This document shows, piece by piece, positions 3,142 to 10,978 of a DNA stretch of 47,364 bases. Under the pieces are notes generated by a model, which made no database searches, was not told the origin of the DNA, and saw only the letters and a program-made list of their open reading frames with translations. The DNA comes from Acidimicrobiales bacterium (GTDB taxonomy: Bacteria > Actinomycetota > Acidimicrobiia > Acidimicrobiales > Palsa-688). The DNA lies in contig DASUWA010000056.1 in assembly GCA_036378675.1 (NCBI GenBank), positions 1 to 47,364 of the forward strand. The letters are read 5' to 3'. The translations under genes and the position numbers were made by a program. Within the stretch, counting starts at the first letter, position 1. Every line of letters starts with the position of its first letter.

Positions 3142-6100
3142 ATGGATCAGCACACCTTGGCCCGCCTGACGGCGGCGAGCACCACGGCGCTGACATCGGC
3201 GCGGCGGTGGGCAGTGGGTGTAGCGATCTTCGCGTTGGCGTGCGTTGTCGCCGGCGCGGTCCTTCCTAACGGCCTTCCCTTCGGTGTGGTTCTTCTCGGC
3301 CTGGTGCTCGGGGGTTTGTCGTCCCTTACCGCGGTCGGGCTGGTGATTCTCTACCGGTCGGCACGCATCATCAACTTCGCTCAGGCCGAGATCGGAGGGC
3401 TCGCCGCGTCGGTAGCGGTGGTGATGGTGACCGGCTGGCACCTGACGTACTTCCTTGCGCTCCCGGTAGGGCTTCTTGCTGCGCTAGCGACCGGCACAAT
3501 TGTCGACCTCACGGTCATCAGGACGCTGTTCAAGGCCCCGCGACTGATCGTCACCGTCGCGACCATCGGTTTGGCGCAGGTCATCGGCGCCGCCGAACTC
3601 GCCCTGCCGACAGCGTTCGGGCACCTCAAGCCTCTGACCACCTTCAACACGCCGTTCACGTTCAAGTTCAACGTCGGGCCCATCCTGTTCAACGGGAATC
3701 ACGTCGTGGCGATGCTGGTAATCCCAGCCGTGTTGGGCGGCCTCGCTCTCTTCTTCAGCCGCACATCGTTCGGAATCGCGATCCGCGGCGCAGCCGATTC
3801 GAACGACCGAGCTGTTCTACTCGGCATCCCGGTGCGGCGCCTTTCGACGATGACATGGGTCCTCGCCGCGGGGCTGTCAGGGGTCGCGTCGATGCTGTCT
3901 GCTCCCATCCTCGGCCCGCAGCTCGGCGTGCTCGCAGGACCGGACGCCCTCCTAGCGCCCCTTACCGCCGCGGTGGTCGCACGGATGGAGAGCCTCACCG
4001 TCGCCTTAGCGGCGTCGCTTGCCATCGGTGTGTTCCAGCAGGCGGTGTTCTGGTCATACGCGCGCTCCACGACCGTGGACGTGGCTCTGTTCGTGGTCGT
4101 GCTCGTCGCGCTTCTTCTCCAGCGTGACCGCATCCGGCGTGCCGACGATCGCGACCTCGGCGGCTACGTCGCGCTGCAGGAGGTTCGGCCGATCCCGTCG
4201 GTTCTCGGGCGGCTCCCCGAGGTCCGGATCGGTAGGGGACTGCTTGCCGGTCTGGTGGTTCTGGCGGCCGTGTTGGTGCCGTTCGGTGTGTCGGACTCGA
4301 AGCTCACTCTCATGGCGTACGTCGCCATCTACGGGATTCTCGCGGTGTCACTAGTCGTGCTGACCGGCTGGTCGGGGCAGATCAGCCTCGGCCAGTTCGC
4401 GTTCGCTGGCATAGGCGCGGGCACAACCGCCAGCCTGTTCGTCAACTCCCACGCCGACTTGTTCGCGGCTCTGTTCGCTGCGGCCGTCACGGGCGCGCTG
4501 GCCGCGGTGATCATCGGCATCCCGGCGCTGCGCCTCCCCGGACTGTTCCTCGCGGTGACGACCCTCGCCTTTGCGGTACCGGTTTCCGACTACCTGCTGA
4601 ACTCGGCCTACTTCCCGTGGTTCGCGCCGTCGACCCTCACCCGCCCGTCGGTGCTGCAACGGTTCGACCTCAACTCGGCGGGCACGTTCTATTACTTCTG
4701 CCTGGCTTTCTTGGTGCTTGCACTCCTGGCAGGGTGGAACTATCGCCGGGGTCGACCCGGCAGGGTGAGCGTTGCCGTTCGAGACAACACGAGGGGAGCC
4801 GCCAGTTTCGGTGTCGATCCGGTGCGTGCGAAGCTCACTGCTTTTGCCGTTGCAGGCGCCATGGCCGGGGTGGCGGGCGGTCTCTACGCAATCGGTCTCC
4901 GTGGGATCGGGTTCTCCGGCTACAACCCGGAGAACAGCCTCCAGGTGTTCACCATGGTCGTCATCGGCGGTCTGGGGAGCCTCACCGGTGGACTGCTCGG
5001 GGCGTTCTACGTCGAGGGAGCGCAATTCTTTCTCAAAGGAGCGGCCCAGTTGCTCGCGACTGGCGGCGGACTTCTGCTCGTCGTCCAGCTGTTCCCCGCC
5101 GGCTTGGCCGGGGGCATTCTGTACCGAGGCCGAGACGCGTTGCTTCGGATGGTCGCTTCGCGCCGAGGTTTGTCAGTGCCGAGCCTCAAAGAGGAGCAAG
5201 CCTTCGCCGAGAGCGCTGAAGAAGGCACCGTGGAAATGCCGGCGCTGGACGGTCTGCCTCCACCGGGTCTTCTCACGCTTTCGGGTGTCGATGCTTCGTA
5301 CGGTCAAGTGCAAGTCCTCTTCGGCGTCGAGCTGAACGTTCCCGAGGGACAGATCGTCGGTCTGTTAGGAACGAACGGCGCGGGCAAGTCGACCGTTCTG
5401 CGGGTCGTGTCGGGACTGCTGAAAACCAAACGCGGCAGCGTCCGCTTCGCAGGCACCGATCTGTCCAAGCTTGATCCGATCGACAGAGTGCGGCGCGGCG
5501 TCGTAACGGTCCCGGGCGGGCGAGGGGTGTTCCCTTCGCTGACCGTCGCCGAGAACCTTCGGCTTGGGTCCTGGTTGATCAGGAGAGACCACGAAGCCGT
5601 GGACTCCACGACCACTTTGATACTCGGGCTGTTCCCCGCACTGCGGGACAGGCTCAACGTCCCGGCCGGAATGCTGTCAGGTGGCGAGCAGCAGATGTTG
5701 ACCATCGCCCAGTCGCTGTACTGCAAACCCAAGCTGCTCATGATCGACGAAATGTCTCTCGGCCTGGCCCCGACGATCGTCTCCCAGCTCCTCGACGTCG
5801 TCCAGTCGTTAGCCGACAGGGGAGTGACGGTGGTGATGGTCGAGCAGTCGCTAAACCTTGCGAGTTCGATTGCAGGCACCGCGGTATTCATGGAGCGCGG
5901 TCAGGTTCGTTTCAGCGGCGAGACTACCGAGCTCTCCAATCGGCCGGAGCTGGTTCGCGCGGTCTTCCTCCAGGGCAGTTCCGAAACAAGGCGGACGTCG
6001 GACCGGTCGACGCCCGGAGAGGCTCGCGTCCCCGATGCCGGCCCCGCTTTCGCGGCTGTGGACCTCTCTCGGCGATTCGGCGGGGTGGTCGCCTTGGACG

Positions 6101-6981
6101 GGGTCAGCTTCGAGGCGTATCCCGGCGAGATCCTGGGCATCATCGGCGCGAACGGCGCCGGCAAGACCACTCTGTTCGACATTTGCTCCGGTTTCCTGCG
6201 CCCGACTGACGGACGTGTGCTTCTGCGCGGATGGGACGTCACCTCGATGCCGGCCCATACGAGGGCCGAACTCGGTCTCGGACGAGTTTTCCAGGACGCC
6301 GCTCTCTTCGCTTCGCTTACGGTCACCGAGACGCTGGCAGTCGCCTGCGAGCGCCACCTTGAGGTTCGTGACCCGTTCCTAAGTGTGCTTCGGACCGGAT
6401 CGGTCGCGCGGTCGGAGGAGGGGGTCTCCGCCAAGGTCGACGAACTGATACGAACGTTCGGTCTCGAGCGATACCGCGATGCCTTCGTGAGAGAGCTGTC
6501 AACTGGAACCAGGAGGGTCGTCGAGCTTGCGTGCGCAGTCGCCCACGATCCTTCCGTGCTATTGCTCGATGAGCCGACTTCCGGGATCGCTCAGCGCGAG
6601 AGCGAGGCGTTGGGCCAGCTGATACTGGACCTTCGTGAGCGCACCGGCGCGACGTTCGTGATCATCGAGCACGATGTGCCGCTGGTTTCATCGATCGCCG
6701 ACCGGCTGATCTGCCTGCACCTCGGAGCGTCGATCGCAGAAGGGGCGCCGATGAGCGTCATCGAGGATCCCGCAGTCGTCGAGGCGTATCTGGGTGTCGA
6801 CCCGAGGGCGATCGCGAGGTCGGGACGCAGCCGGCAGCGGACTCCGCGAAAGTCCGCGGAGAAGCGGACCGCCAACACGACTACTCGAGCCGCGTCGCGG
6901 AACGGCAACATTCGTGACGGGTCGGCGGCGCCACCCGGCAAGGCCCGGGCAAGGACTGAACGAGGAGGGAACAGCCGATGA
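3142..6981 (+). CDS. Four-domain fused Liv-type ABC importer (LivH-LivM-LivF-LivG)
   Basis: One 1279-residue polypeptide holds a complete branched-chain-amino-acid-type ABC importer, normally four proteins. The order is a LivH-like permease (about 45-330), a LivM-like permease (about 365-670), a LivF-like ATPase (about 708-945) and a LivG-like ATPase (about 970-1220). The first ATPase has Walker A GTNGAGKST (743-751), signature LSGGEQQM and Walker B LLMIDE. Its Q-loop residue is Gly in VPGGRGVFP where LivF usually has Glu or Gln, and Gln replaces the H-loop His, as is usual for LivF. The second has Walker A GANGAGKTT (1002-1010), Q1051, signature LSTGTRRVVEL, Walker B VLLLDEP and His1177. A basic Arg/Thr-rich tail of about 55 residues ends the protein. 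I chose the ATG after GGGGGAG. The substrate may be lipophilic or aromatic rather than an amino acid, which is inference. Confidence 0.93.
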   Translation: MDQHTLARLTAASTTALTSARRWAVGVAIFALACVVAGAVLPNGLPFGVVLLGLVLGGLSSLTAVGLVILYRSARIINFAQAEIGGLAASVAVVMVTGWHLTYFLALPVGLLAALATGTIVDLTVIRTLFKAPRLIVTVATIGLAQVIGAAELALPTAFGHLKPLTTFNTPFTFKFNVGPILFNGNHVVAMLVIPAVLGGLALFFSRTSFGIAIRGAADSNDRAVLLGIPVRRLSTMTWVLAAGLSGVASMLSAPILGPQLGVLAGPDALLAPLTAAVVARMESLTVALAASLAIGVFQQAVFWSYARSTTVDVALFVVVLVALLLQRDRIRRADDRDLGGYVALQEVRPIPSVLGRLPEVRIGRGLLAGLVVLAAVLVPFGVSDSKLTLMAYVAIYGILAVSLVVLTGWSGQISLGQFAFAGIGAGTTASLFVNSHADLFAALFAAAVTGALAAVIIGIPALRLPGLFLAVTTLAFAVPVSDYLLNSAYFPWFAPSTLTRPSVLQRFDLNSAGTFYYFCLAFLVLALLAGWNYRRGRPGRVSVAVRDNTRGAASFGVDPVRAKLTAFAVAGAMAGVAGGLYAIGLRGIGFSGYNPENSLQVFTMVVIGGLGSLTGGLLGAFYVEGAQFFLKGAAQLLATGGGLLLVVQLFPAGLAGGILYRGRDALLRMVASRRGLSVPSLKEEQAFAESAEEGTVEMPALDGLPPPGLLTLSGVDASYGQVQVLFGVELNVPEGQIVGLLGTNGAGKSTVLRVVSGLLKTKRGSVRFAGTDLSKLDPIDRVRRGVVTVPGGRGVFPSLTVAENLRLGSWLIRRDHEAVDSTTTLILGLFPALRDRLNVPAGMLSGGEQQMLTIAQSLYCKPKLLMIDEMSLGLAPTIVSQLLDVVQSLADRGVTVVMVEQSLNLASSIAGTAVFMERGQVRFSGETTELSNRPELVRAVFLQGSSETRRTSDRSTPGEARVPDAGPAFAAVDLSRRFGGVVALDGVSFEAYPGEILGIIGANGAGKTTLFDICSGFLRPTDGRVLLRGWDVTSMPAHTRAELGLGRVFQDAALFASLTVTETLAVACERHLEVRDPFLSVLRTGSVARSEEGVSAKVDELIRTFGLERYRDAFVRELSTGTRRVVELACAVAHDPSVLLLDEPTSGIAQRESEALGQLILDLRERTGATFVIIEHDVPLVSSIADRLICLHLGASIAEGAPMSVIEDPAVVEAYLGVDPRAIARSGRSRQRTPRKSAEKRTANTTTRAASRNGNIRDGSAAPPGKARARTERGGNSR

Positions 6982-8771
6982 CGGCACCCCTAGGGGGAGG
7001 ACAGATGTCCCAGGCCGAGTTCGATGCGATGATGCGCCGGTGGCTGCTGAAGGTCGGCGCCCGTTACGTTCCCGTCGCGGTCATCGGGCTGGCCATCGGC
7101 CTGATCATCGCCTTTGTACCGACCACCCAGCCCAACAGCGCAGGAGGAGGATTTCAAGCAGGAGCTGCCGGGCAGCAACCGAGCGGGGCACCGGCCCCCA
7201 CCGGCGCCGCGGCGAATCCACAGCCCTCCGGTGCCCAAGGGGCAACCCCCCCGGCGTCGGCGGCCGGAGCGGCCAGCGCGACCGGGGCGGCCTCTGTCGG
7301 GCCGTCCAGTTCGTCGAATTCAACGGGTATCACACCACCGGCGGCATCAGGCGTTTCTCGCACGGGGGTCACCTGCGGATCCGGAGCGCGTCAATTCAGC
7401 TGGTCTCGCTACGCACCGCTGTGCGTTCCTGCGTACCACGGCAACAACGGCGGCGCGACCGCCCCAGGCGTGACGGCATCCACGATCACCTTGACGTACC
7501 GCCTCGCCAACTCGGCCCAGCAGTCGGCCATCAACGCACTCGCGGGCGCCGCCAATGTCAATCAGGACGACTACGTGGCGGACCTGCAGGCATACATCGC
7601 CTACTTCAACAAGCAGTTCGAGCTGTACGGGCGTCAGGTGGTCCTCAAGACCTACCAGGGCCAGGGTGATTACATCGAAGAGGACCAGGGACAGGGTCTG
7701 GCAGCCACCCAGTCTGATGCCGTCACCGCCCACGACATGGGAGCGTTCGGCGACGTCACCTTCACGCTCCAGGCTTCCCAGCCTTACGAAGAGGACCTGG
7801 CCGCCGAGCGCGTGATCGGGTTCTCATCGGTTGGCCTTTCCCAGCAGTGGTTCGATCAGCATGCTCCCTACGAGTACTCGGTTCAGGGACCCTCCGGAAC
7901 CAATGCGGTGACGGGCGGGGCGGCCGTGGTATGCCGCAGGCTGGCCGGACTGCCCGCGGTGTTCAGCAGTGACACTCTGTACCAGCACACCACACGCAAG
8001 TTCGGGATCATTTACCCGCAGACACCGGTGTACACGGCCGAAGCCAACCTCTACAAGCAGCTGTTGTCCAGCGGGTGTGGGGTGCAGGTTTCCAGCAACG
8101 ACACCATCGGATACACCATTAACGTCGCCGAGTACGAGCAGGAAGCAACCACCGCTATGGCCAAACTCAAAGCGGATGGAGTCACAACCGTCCTCTGTTC
8201 GTGCGACCCGATCGTGCCGATCTTCCTTACCAGCGCGGCATCTCAGCAGCAGTATTTCCCCGAGTGGCTCACCGCAGATTTCGGTGACCCTATCGCCCGG
8301 GAGTACACCCAGAGCGAGTGGCAGGACACCATCGTCGGAGGCTTCCAGTTCCCACCCCTACCAACCATCGAAGCGTTCAAGGCCTACCAGCTCGGGTATC
8401 CCGGTCAACATCCTGCAGAGTGGTCGCCGAGCTCCCCGCCGTACTTCTACGTGCCGTATTACACGCTGCTTCAGGTGTTCGACGCCCTTCAGGCCGCTGG
8501 TCCTGATCTCACCCCAGCGACCTTCGAGCGGGGAATGTTTTCGCTACCGCCCTCGCTACCCGGTGATGTCATCGCCGGGCAGTGGAACTTTGGAAACGGA
8601 GTGTTCGACCCGGAGGCTTCGTTCGAAATCGCTAAATGGAACCCGAATGCCGTGAGCGCATTCGACAACACGAAAGGCGCCTACACATGGTGCAACGGCG
8701 GCCAGACCTATCTGATATCGGACCCATCCGCCCTAGGCGGACCCGGTCAACAGCTGCAGTGTCCGGGATAG
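6978..8771 (+). CDS. Membrane-anchored Liv-type substrate-binding protein
   Basis: A 597-residue Peripla_BP_6 (LivK-like) ligand-binding protein, partner of the fused transporter whose stop codon it overlaps (ATGA). Instead of a lipobox it has an uncleaved-looking membrane segment (about 30-48). A Pro/Ala/Gly/Ser-rich linker (about 50-125) follows, then the two-lobed binding domain, starting near CGSGARQFSWSRYAPLC. The domain has several Cys residues that could form disulphides outside the membrane. A GAGGAGGGA ribosome binding site fits the first ATG, and a second ATG nine codons later is possible. Tethering by a transmembrane helix is less common than a lipid anchor. The ligand is unknown. 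Confidence 0.88.
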   Translation: MTAPLGGGQMSQAEFDAMMRRWLLKVGARYVPVAVIGLAIGLIIAFVPTTQPNSAGGGFQAGAAGQQPSGAPAPTGAAANPQPSGAQGATPPASAAGAASATGAASVGPSSSSNSTGITPPAASGVSRTGVTCGSGARQFSWSRYAPLCVPAYHGNNGGATAPGVTASTITLTYRLANSAQQSAINALAGAANVNQDDYVADLQAYIAYFNKQFELYGRQVVLKTYQGQGDYIEEDQGQGLAATQSDAVTAHDMGAFGDVTFTLQASQPYEEDLAAERVIGFSSVGLSQQWFDQHAPYEYSVQGPSGTNAVTGGAAVVCRRLAGLPAVFSSDTLYQHTTRKFGIIYPQTPVYTAEANLYKQLLSSGCGVQVSSNDTIGYTINVAEYEQEATTAMAKLKADGVTTVLCSCDPIVPIFLTSAASQQQYFPEWLTADFGDPIAREYTQSEWQDTIVGGFQFPPLPTIEAFKAYQLGYPGQHPAEWSPSSPPYFYVPYYTLLQVFDALQAAGPDLTPATFERGMFSLPPSLPGDVIAGQWNFGNGVFDPEASFEIAKWNPNAVSAFDNTKGAYTWCNGGQTYLISDPSALGGPGQQLQCPG

Positions 8772-8824: not shown

Positions 8825-9451
8825 GTGCGGACGCTGTGCGACGCGTCGAGGATGTTCTTCCGGCAACGTTCTCCGATCGCCATCGCCGTCGTGCTGGTCG
8901 CTGCGGTCGCCGGACGGATCTACGTGGGGGAGTACAGCTGGTGGGACCTTCTGCCGCCGGCCATCGTGGTCGCTGTCCAACCCCTCACCGAATGGCTCAT
9001 CCATGTGTTCCTGCTTCACTTCCGGCCGCGATCGGTCGGCGGTTACAAGTTTGATCCGCTCGTGTCGCGCAAGCACCGCGCCCATCACGCCGATCCGAAG
9101 GATCTTCGGCTGGTGTTCATTCCTGACCAGCCTCTCGTCGGATTGCTCGCCGGCACGGCAGCGGTCTTCCTGATCCCGTTCTCCCTTCCGGTCGGACTGT
9201 CGGGTCTGATCGGGGCGTACGCGATGACCCTCACTTACGAGTGGACCCACTTTCTGATTCATTCCTCCTACCGACCGCGCCACAAGGTGTACCGGTACGT
9301 ATGGCGGGCCCACCGCAACCATCACTACCGGAACGAGCGGTATTGGTTCGGTGTGACCATGCACCTGGCGGATCACATTCTCGGGACCTTCCCGGATAAG
9401 AGCTCTGTCGAGCTGTCGCCCACCGCTCGAACCCTCGGCATGGAGTCATAG
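8825..9451 (+). CDS. Sterol desaturase / fatty acid hydroxylase superfamily membrane protein
   Basis: A protein of about 208 residues with hydrophobic segments and the clustered histidines of the diiron membrane hydroxylases (FA_hydroxylase). The clusters are HVFLLH, HRAHH, HFLIH and HRNHH, each beside an amphipathic or membrane segment. Family members insert oxygen into, or desaturate, sterols, carotenoids or fatty acyl chains using O2. I chose the GTG that has GAGGA five bases upstream. An earlier in-frame GTG at 8759 overlaps the preceding gene and would add 22 residues. It is the last gene of the transporter operon, so it may act on the imported compound or on a membrane lipid. Confidence 0.8.
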   Translation: MRTLCDASRMFFRQRSPIAIAVVLVAAVAGRIYVGEYSWWDLLPPAIVVAVQPLTEWLIHVFLLHFRPRSVGGYKFDPLVSRKHRAHHADPKDLRLVFIPDQPLVGLLAGTAAVFLIPFSLPVGLSGLIGAYAMTLTYEWTHFLIHSSYRPRHKVYRYVWRAHRNHHYRNERYWFGVTMHLADHILGTFPDKSSVELSPTARTLGMES

Positions 9452-9479
9452 ATAGCAATCGCCGCGGCAGAAAAGCACG

Positions 9480-10349
9480 CTACCGGGACAGCTCAGGAGT
9501 CACTATCCGGTAGTTGACCGTGCCGTCGGCAACCAGCCGTCCGTCGGCGGCGCGGCAGATCTCAACGTCGCAGAAGAGAACCTCGCGATCGACATGCACC
9601 ACCCGCCCGTGCCCGACCAGGTCTCCCCGCGGAGCGGGGTCGAGTACCCGGGCCTGCAGTCCCGGAGTGGATGCCTTGAATCGGCCGGGCCCGGTCTTCG
9701 CCCAGGCCGACATCGCGCCAGTGGTGTCGAGGAGCGCGAGGAGCGCCCCCTCGTGGATTTCGCCGTCGGGAGTGGTGTTCGCCTCCGCCTCGGGCATGAC
9801 GATCCGGGACAACCCGTCAGCCATGTGCTCCGCGCTGATCCCGAGCGCGGCATGAAACGGGATGGACGCGATGAACGGGCCCATCGGCCCCTTATCGTTC
9901 CCCGCGGCGAAGCCCGCCACGACCGGCGCAGGTAGGGGCTCGGCGCCGAAGCGGCCTCGCACCGTCAACAGTCCCTTCGCGATCGGTTTGCCGCCGTCGC
10001 CGGCAACTTCCACCTCGACGTGGGCGAGCTCCTTGCCCTTGCGCAGCAGTGTCGCGGTTCCGGTTATCCCCTCTCCCAAAGCCGCCGACAGATATCCGAT
10101 CTGAAGCGCGCTGGTGTGCCAGGGGCCGCTCTCTGGCCCGAGCGAAGCGCGGGCCAGGCAACCGGCCGAGCTCACGATCATCGACCCGGCGACGCCGCCG
10201 TGAAGCGCGGTGTCCCCGTTGGACAGCTCTTCCTTGAAACCGAGCGACAGCCGCGCCTGCTCTGCGGACAGCTCTGTGATGGTCAGGCCGAGGAGCTTGG
10301 CGAACGGCGCATCCTCGATCCAGCGGCTAACCCAATCACTCCCGCTCAT
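9480..10349 (-). CDS. Tandem hotdog-fold (PaaI-like) thioesterase
   Basis: A 289-residue protein with two hotdog domains in tandem. The first (about 15-130) carries the classic N-D-T-x-L-H-G-G segment ([14 protein letters not shown]), where PaaI-type thioesterases bind acyl-CoA. The second (about 165-285) has an equivalent [20 protein letters not shown]. Such double-hotdog proteins hydrolyse acyl-CoA thioesters in the cytoplasm, often in aromatic or lipid catabolism. Its start overlaps the stop of the upstream TetR gene by four bases (ATGA), so it is translationally coupled and shares that promoter. It converges on the hydroxylase gene 28 bases away. Confidence 0.85.
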
Positions 10350-10978
10350 CGTGGGCGAAGGCCGTCCAGGACGAGCGACACCACGAAATCCGCGACGACT
10401 CGGGCCTCCAGCCCGTCGTCGGTGCTGAGGCGACGATGAGCCAGTTGCCCGACGAGCGCGGCCAGGCTGAACGCGACCATGCGAGGCGGCGCGGAGATGA
10501 TTGCCCCCCGCTTCTGGGCGACCTTGATCATCTCCTCTATATCGCTGACGAACCGCTCGTAGATGCCGAAGAGATGCTTCTCGAATCGGTCACTGAGAGC
10601 GTAGGAATCGCGGAACAGGAGCTTCACCGTCGCGCGATCGGCCTCGAAGAACTCGAACGTGGCGCGTATGGCCGCGCGGAAACCCGCATCGGTGGCGTCC
10701 GCGGAATCTATGCCGGCGAGCGCAGCAGCGAGATGGGAGCGGAGGGCCTGCTCCTCGGATGCCATCAGCTCGTGGAACAGCTCATCCTTCGAAGAGAAGT
10801 ACCAGTAGATCGACCCGTAGGCGACCCCTGCTTCTCTGGCGACGTCGGCAATGGTCGTCGCGTGGTATCCCTTGCTCGCGAACACCTTCTTCGCAGCGGC
10901 GAGGATGTCGTCACGGCGAGCCGCCTTGTCGTCCTCGCTGACGGCACGGCGCATCTGTTTCGCGCGCTGCGTTGTCAC
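10346..10978 (-). CDS. TetR family transcriptional regulator
   Basis: A 210-residue regulator. The N-terminal helix-turn-helix is clear ([20 protein letters not shown], then [20 protein letters not shown]), with a ligand-binding helical C-terminus that resembles fatty-acid or acyl-CoA-responsive TetR proteins. The given start is GTG; an ATG eight codons later (MRRAVSEDD) is possible, and neither has a good ribosome binding site. The dyad 24-39 bases upstream is nearly identical to one before the transporter operon. That suggests autorepression plus control of import, with an acyl-CoA as a plausible inducer given the coupled thioesterase. Confidence 0.92.

Follow-up and report, generated by a model that had tools for sequence, protein, structure and literature searches.

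One reading frame for two permeases and two ATPases: a probable single-chain core of a Liv-type importer in Acidimicrobiales

Can the entire membrane and motor core of a Liv-type ATP-binding cassette (ABC) importer be encoded as one polypeptide? This question is raised by an open reading frame (ORF) at positions 3142-6981 of a 47,364-nucleotide stretch of DNA from an Acidimicrobiales bacterium (contig DASUWA010000056.1, assembly GCA_036378675.1), the whole of which is referred to here as the window. The original prediction, made from the letters of the sequence, described a complete importer in which two permease and two ATPase domains share one frame with no internal stop. Translation, Pfam, and NCBIfam bear out the four domains in frame. 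The word complete holds for the membrane core but not for the importer as a whole, since the binding protein is encoded by a separate gene that overlaps the end of the fused one. The best reading of the locus is an importer of the HAAT type composed of two polypeptides, the fused core and the binding protein.

Translation of the ORF gives 1279 residues and a single stop, at the end. A GGAG motif lies 5 bases 5' of the start ATG at 3142, and the stop-to-stop frame is open from 2926, with an alternative GTG at 2956 that falls within the upstream gene. Pfam placed two BPD_transp_2 domains (PF02653; P1 and P2) and two ABC_tran stretches (N1 and N2) on this one chain. The top NCBIfam model for N1 was UrtE, and the UrtE and LivF models both had their best stretch there; for N2 the top models were LivG, UrtD, and LptB. 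By whole-protein scores, UrtE and LptB passed their curated cut-offs and LivF, LivG, and UrtD failed theirs. Structure comparison paired N1 with the LivF-type ATPase 1ji0 (Z 32.9) and N2 with LptB (Z up to 31.0) and the branched-chain-transport ATPase MJ1267 (Z 28.1). The order of the locus is permease, permease, LivF-like ATPase, LivG-like ATPase, and then the binding-protein gene. Two BPD_transp_2 permeases, one LivF-like ATPase, and one LivG-like ATPase are what the Liv family calls for, and every testable HAAT (Liv) feature is present except separate subunits: the four core domains that classical LivHMGF systems carry on separate polypeptides stand here in a single ORF.

Structure prediction, which had been proposed as a check, returned a single compact model. 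The AlphaFold model of residues 25-1224, built with 47 sequences, has a mean predicted local distance difference test score (pLDDT) of 86.6 and a predicted template modeling score (pTM) of 0.86. All 54 residues with a pLDDT below 50 sit at the three domain junctions (Table 1). The P1-P2 linker is conserved across relatives, and the P2-N1 and N1-N2 linkers vary in both length and sequence. The model suggests that the domains are held by tethers.

Relatives were collected by a profile scan of contigs, built on an alignment of 11 fused permease halves, from which the best 80 of 490 relatives were kept. These 80 named loci come from uncultured Actinomycetota, and 22 of them carry an Acidimicrobi- name. 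Four domains in one frame were found in 50 of the 80 loci (46 complete within the locus), a proportion that cannot be read as a frequency, since fused proteins made up the query. The remaining 30 comprise 22 systems in which the four domains are divided two and two (2+2 systems), one locus (L152) whose N2 lies in a different frame from P1-P2-N1, and seven that are cut or incomplete.

A binding-protein homolog lies inside 45 of the 50 four-domain loci, on the same strand in 43. In L110, the four-domain gene has binding-protein homologs on both flanks (3218-4849 and 9100-10722). Assignment of the window's own binding protein to the PBP-I class comes from its predicted fold, not from Pfam. Its model (pLDDT 91.7, pTM 0.91) has PBP-I binding proteins (fatty-acid, Leu/Ile/Val, and others) among its top PDB matches, at 10-15% identity and with TM-scores for the best of them of ∼0.5-0.6 by query and 0.7 by target; Peripla_BP_6 was matched by 5 of 23 scanned family members, at best with 1.2e-12. 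Of 41 relatives tested, 40 have a hydrophobic segment ahead of the domain and 1 has a lipobox-like motif. The test is a crude one, but it suggests that the protein is anchored by a membrane helix and not by a lipid.

The two ATPases differ in their motifs, and the difference is conserved. Among 63 four-domain proteins, N1 keeps Walker A, Walker B, and LSGGEQ intact, yet its Q-loop position is Gly in 57, Ser in 4, and Ala in 2, and its switch is Gln instead of His in all 63. N2 has a Q-loop Gln and a switch His in 63 of 63, and Thr at the third position of its signature in 56 (LSTGTRR in the window). The Gly at the Q-loop position of the first ATPase, noted at the outset, is real: Gly792 (VPGGR) aligns with the Glu of VPEGR in 1ji0, whose switch region reads VEQ. 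It is not peculiar to this protein, however, as Gly also occupies the position in 24 of 24 rows labeled 2+2 (one of which, L180, is two contig-cut operons) and in 4 of 12 other rows, namely 11 paralogs from the window genome plus L152. The other 8 of these 12 have Glu; the switch is Gln in all 12, and the N2 signature has Thr in 8. Because 1ji0 has Glu and the paralogs Glu or Gly, the absence of Gln is not confined to the fused proteins. ABC ATPases pair head to tail, so the site formed by the N1 Walker motifs and the N2 signature, with an odd Q-loop, an odd switch, and an odd partner signature, is predicted to be degraded and the other to be canonical.

These observations lead us to propose that the ORF very probably encodes the entire membrane and motor core of a HAAT importer as a single chain, with an adjacent anchored binding protein as its partner and two unequal ATP sites. 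The two permease domains would form the channel, and the two ATPase domains, on flexible linkers, would pair beneath it. The membrane-anchored binding protein would capture the solute outside and dock on the permeases, after which ATP binding and hydrolysis would power uptake. The site combining the N1 Walker motifs (Gly Q-loop, Gln switch) with the N2 STGTR signature may mainly hold ATP, and the site combining the canonical N2 motifs with LSGGEQ of N1 may do most of the hydrolysis.

A number of results weigh against this proposal. The binding protein of the window has no Pfam match at E ≤ 1, and five four-domain loci have no binding-protein homolog in the stretch covered, although one of these (L109) is cut by the contig end. 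The model leaves open which ATPase touches which permease. The structure-comparison matches listed covered the ATPases and hardly probed the permease fold, and a phmmer search of the permease half against solved structures gave no relative at 0.01. Within the fused clade, L152 (944-5154) has N2 in another frame, which may be a frameshift introduced in assembly or a true re-split of the gene. The other points on this side concern the junctions, where start-like sites occur. The window has one weak site in the P2-N1 linker, an AAGG spaced before a GTG at 5230. Of 63 fused ORFs, 36 have one or more four-base sites in the P1-P2 linker, 35 in the P2-N1 linker, and 24 in the N1-N2 linker, and at five bases or more the P1-P2 linker rises above background (15 of 3765 codons, ∼1.5-fold).

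These sites, together with the variability and low model confidence of the P2-N1 and N1-N2 linkers, favor the rival that survives best, in which the permeases and ATPases are also produced as separate proteins, through internal starts or proteolysis at the junctions, and the frame is used partly as parts. In the 63 ORFs, start codons in frame were counted if a ribosome-site match of at least four, or at least five, bases lay ahead of them. With four or more bases, the linkers are not enriched over the domain interiors: 0.0186 (P1-P2), 0.0137 (P2-N1), and 0.0087 (N1-N2) sites per codon against 0.0174 inside domains. With five or more, the three linkers have 0.0040, 0.0026, and 0.0017 against 0.0026, and the P2-N1 linker, the expected split point, thus stays at background. 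Internal starts had been named as a finding that would undo the single-chain claim; the looser threshold gives no clear linker enrichment, but the stricter one leaves the P1-P2 linker raised. On balance, internal starts seem not to be favored at the junctions and are weakly supported at best, and we regard partial use as separate proteins as unlikely.

Less likely still, and in our judgment very improbable, is that the protein is an exporter, or an ATPase coupled to some other process, that has retained Liv-type domains. ABC families do change role, and many sister systems depart from the plain Liv scheme in that their ATPase chain carries an MFS domain as well. Against this stand the permeases, which belong to BPD_transp_2, and the binding-protein homolog both beside the window gene and in the 45 loci mentioned above. 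A sequencing or assembly error that merged two overlapping genes can practically be dismissed, for although the genome is a draft of 75 contigs and sister systems such as L070 do have overlapping P1-P2 and N1-N2 genes, orthologs from many assemblies, with identities down to 43%, hold the identical four-domain frame in the 50 named loci and in 27 of 99 sampled genomes, and the fusion is therefore no artifact.

The latter sample covers the order of the window. Forty-one of its 99 genomes had a match at E ≤ 1e-150, and at least one four-domain frame was confirmed in 27, which is a lower bound, as follow-up was limited to matches at that threshold and six candidates were scored per genome. The architecture thus recurs elsewhere, a point on which the original prediction had asked for a search. 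Of 46 genomes sampled from the phylum outside the class, one (G133) has a four-domain frame. Identity to the closest relative found (L101) is 71%, and full-length identities among same-frame orthologs reach down to the 43% given above. The order sample includes two genomes from the window's own family, neither of which matched at 1e-150, and 12 same-family genomes gave weak DNA matches only (best 2.2e-20), which indicates that the fused gene is patchy in its distribution. A search of plasmid records gave nothing at 1e-100. In L212 (G108:C73:36000-44000), from the same phylum, P1-P2-N1 is fused and N2 lies in another frame, a different, 3+1 grade.

Several grades of fusion coexist in the window genome. 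Besides a second four-domain system (C11), it holds two 2+2 systems (C24 and C32), two 3+1 systems with the LivG-like ATPase attached to the permeases (C68 and C41), six 2+1+1 systems, a permease pair with an ATPase pair whose order is reversed (C47), a further partly fused system that is the second operon of L074, and two systems with the four domains in four frames. Mapping the fused and split states on a phylogeny drew on 106 loci, 99 without the seven duplicates, of which 98 were used; loci lacking one of the four domains, loci with a domain match shorter than 170 residues, and L180 were also excluded. Automatic best-domain labels were wrong for three loci. L144, a four-domain ORF beside another ATPase gene, was relabeled accordingly; L180 still figures among the 24 rows labeled 2+2 in the tree drawing and motif counts; and L152 was taken as fused in the state-change trees. 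It should be noted that the trees are quick searches with Shimodaira-Hasegawa-like approximate likelihood ratio test (SH-aLRT) support only, and that some long branches meet in the concatenated and permease trees.

Over the 98-locus trees, the state changes between fused and split six times with all four domains, five times with the permeases, and four times with the ATPases; strongly supported branches force at least five, four, and three changes, respectively, counts that do not separate gain from loss. In the concatenated tree, the window protein belongs to a strongly supported set of 48 rows, all fused when L152 is counted as such. In the drawn tree, 2+2 systems with identical pairings are the closest split relatives of the fused proteins, and the 3+1 systems branch outside. 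This placement makes it probable that the fusion arose when a permease-permease gene and a neighboring ATPase-ATPase gene were joined in frame (P1-P2 to N1-N2). Such joining likely happened more than once.

A side observation concerns the 2+2 systems. In 19 of the 24 rows labeled 2+2, a phmmer search with the L069 region located an MFS-like region in the ATPase-pair frame as well, and Pfam MFS_1 was found in both of the chains scanned (L069, E 5.1e-32; L149, E 8.7e-44). The chains at L069:7105-10134, which lies in the window's own genome (C24), and L149:7142-10057 are ∼1000 residues long and place tandem Liv-type ATPases behind the MFS domain. These MFS-ATPase-ATPase chains adjoin a fused Liv permease and a binding-protein gene. 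In our view, an MFS fold joined to Liv-type ATPases is stranger than the four-domain fusion and may deserve more attention. Searches of open-licence PMC literature, covering mostly titles and the starts of abstracts, turned up no account of a four-domain Liv fusion or of such an MFS fusion.

The features of the locus are collected in Table 1.

Table 1. Features of the fused gene and its binding-protein partner, in window coordinates.
Feature	Position	Strand	Residues and basis
Four-domain importer core, P1-P2-N1-N2	3142..6981	+	1279 aa; translation, Pfam, NCBIfam
Permease domain P1, LivH-like by order	3262..4146	+	aa 41-335; Pfam BPD_transp_2, limits set by us
P1-P2 linker	4147..4266	+	Conserved sequence; pLDDT < 50 at aa 334-344
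Permease domain P2, LivM-like by order	4267..5211	+	aa 376-690; Pfam BPD_transp_2 at aa 389-635, limits set by us
P2-N1 linker	5212..5256	+	Variable; pLDDT < 50 at aa 685-705; weak AAGG-GTG start-like site at 5230
ATPase N1, LivF-like	5257..5976	+	aa 706-945; Walker A/B and LSGGEQ intact, Q-loop Gly, H-switch Gln
Gly792, Q-loop position of N1	5515..5517	+	VPGGR; alignment with 1ji0
N1-N2 linker	5977..6036	+	Variable; pLDDT < 50 at aa 942-963
ATPase N2, LivG-like	6037..6816	+	aa 966-1225; canonical Walker A/B, Q-loop Gln, His switch; signature LSTGTRR
C-terminal tail	6817..6978	+	Basic, ∼54 aa; translation
Substrate-binding protein gene	6978..8771	+	597 aa; overlaps the stop of the fused gene by ATGA; hydrophobic N-terminal segment, PBP-I fold

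Downstream, positions 8819-29876 of the window encode a fatty acid hydroxylase, acyl-CoA thioesterases, SDRs, a P450, a luciferase-like monooxygenase, a sulfatase, and two TetR regulators; other genes flanking the fused gene are MiaE-like and DUF7064. This setting suggests lipid or small-molecule metabolism. Six flanking genes were searched against the ORFs of loci L068-L180: four matched only themselves, one thioesterase had one weak match, and a TetR gene had eight weak matches and one strong one. As the neighbors are hardly shared among the loci and no conserved one points to a solute, they were dropped as a clue and no substrate is proposed from them.

Regarding the wider meaning, we would give about even chances to the view that full-length single-chain importers have evolved repeatedly in Acidimicrobiales and in at least one more actinobacterial lineage. 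Such importers would unite a canonical and a degraded site in one polypeptide, work with a membrane-anchored binding protein, and need two genes, as a bacterial import counterpart of the full transporters of eukaryotes, and paralogs that are separate, partly fused, and fully fused would coexist in one genome. Each ATPase of a single chain can be mutated separately, and the role of unequal Liv-type ATP sites would therefore become directly testable. A genome that carries grades from separate subunits through 2+1+1, 3+1, and 2+2 to four-in-one also offers a ready-made series in which to ask why subunits fuse.

How, then, does the fused protein compare with known systems? It resembles LivHMGF-type importers of the HAAT family, among them E. 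coli Liv and UrtBCDE, in its two BPD_transp_2 permeases, its LivF-like and LivG-like ATPases, and the PBP-I gene next door. It differs from them in that the four core domains form one chain and in the binding protein, which has a hydrophobic N-terminal segment and only rarely a lipobox-like motif. The fusion had been credited with fixing a 1:1:1:1 stoichiometry. This was overstated: Liv importers are already 1:1:1:1 heteromers, so fusion ensures co-production and need not alter stoichiometry. The 3+1, 2+2, and 2+1+1 Liv systems of the same genome have the same domains, and the 2+2 systems share the P1-P2 and N1-N2 pairings as well, whereas all of these partly fused systems use at least two polypeptides and many 2+2 ATPase chains carry the extra MFS domain. 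OppD/DppD systems are peptide importers with their permeases on separate chains. The fused protein is nevertheless like the OppD/DppD of Mycobacterium tuberculosis importers (8j5q, 8wd9) in having two ATPases in one chain, and these were matched over both ATPases of the model.

The likeness to eukaryotic full transporters that had been drawn at the outset stands for the single chain and is limited to it, because eukaryotic full transporters are ordered transmembrane domain (TMD), nucleotide-binding domain (NBD), TMD, NBD and the fused protein is TMD-TMD-NBD-NBD. The exporters ABCB1 and Rv0194 differ from it further in their exporter membrane fold and the lack of a binding protein, and share the TMD-NBD-TMD-NBD order. 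Like them, the fused protein carries a pair of membrane domains and a pair of ATPase domains on a single chain. Eukaryotic ABCB1 and mycobacterial Rv0194 are four-domain exporters encoded by a single gene (PMC7761784). Set beside all of these systems, the arrangement described here is real and unusual, yet it is a variant of a familiar pump.

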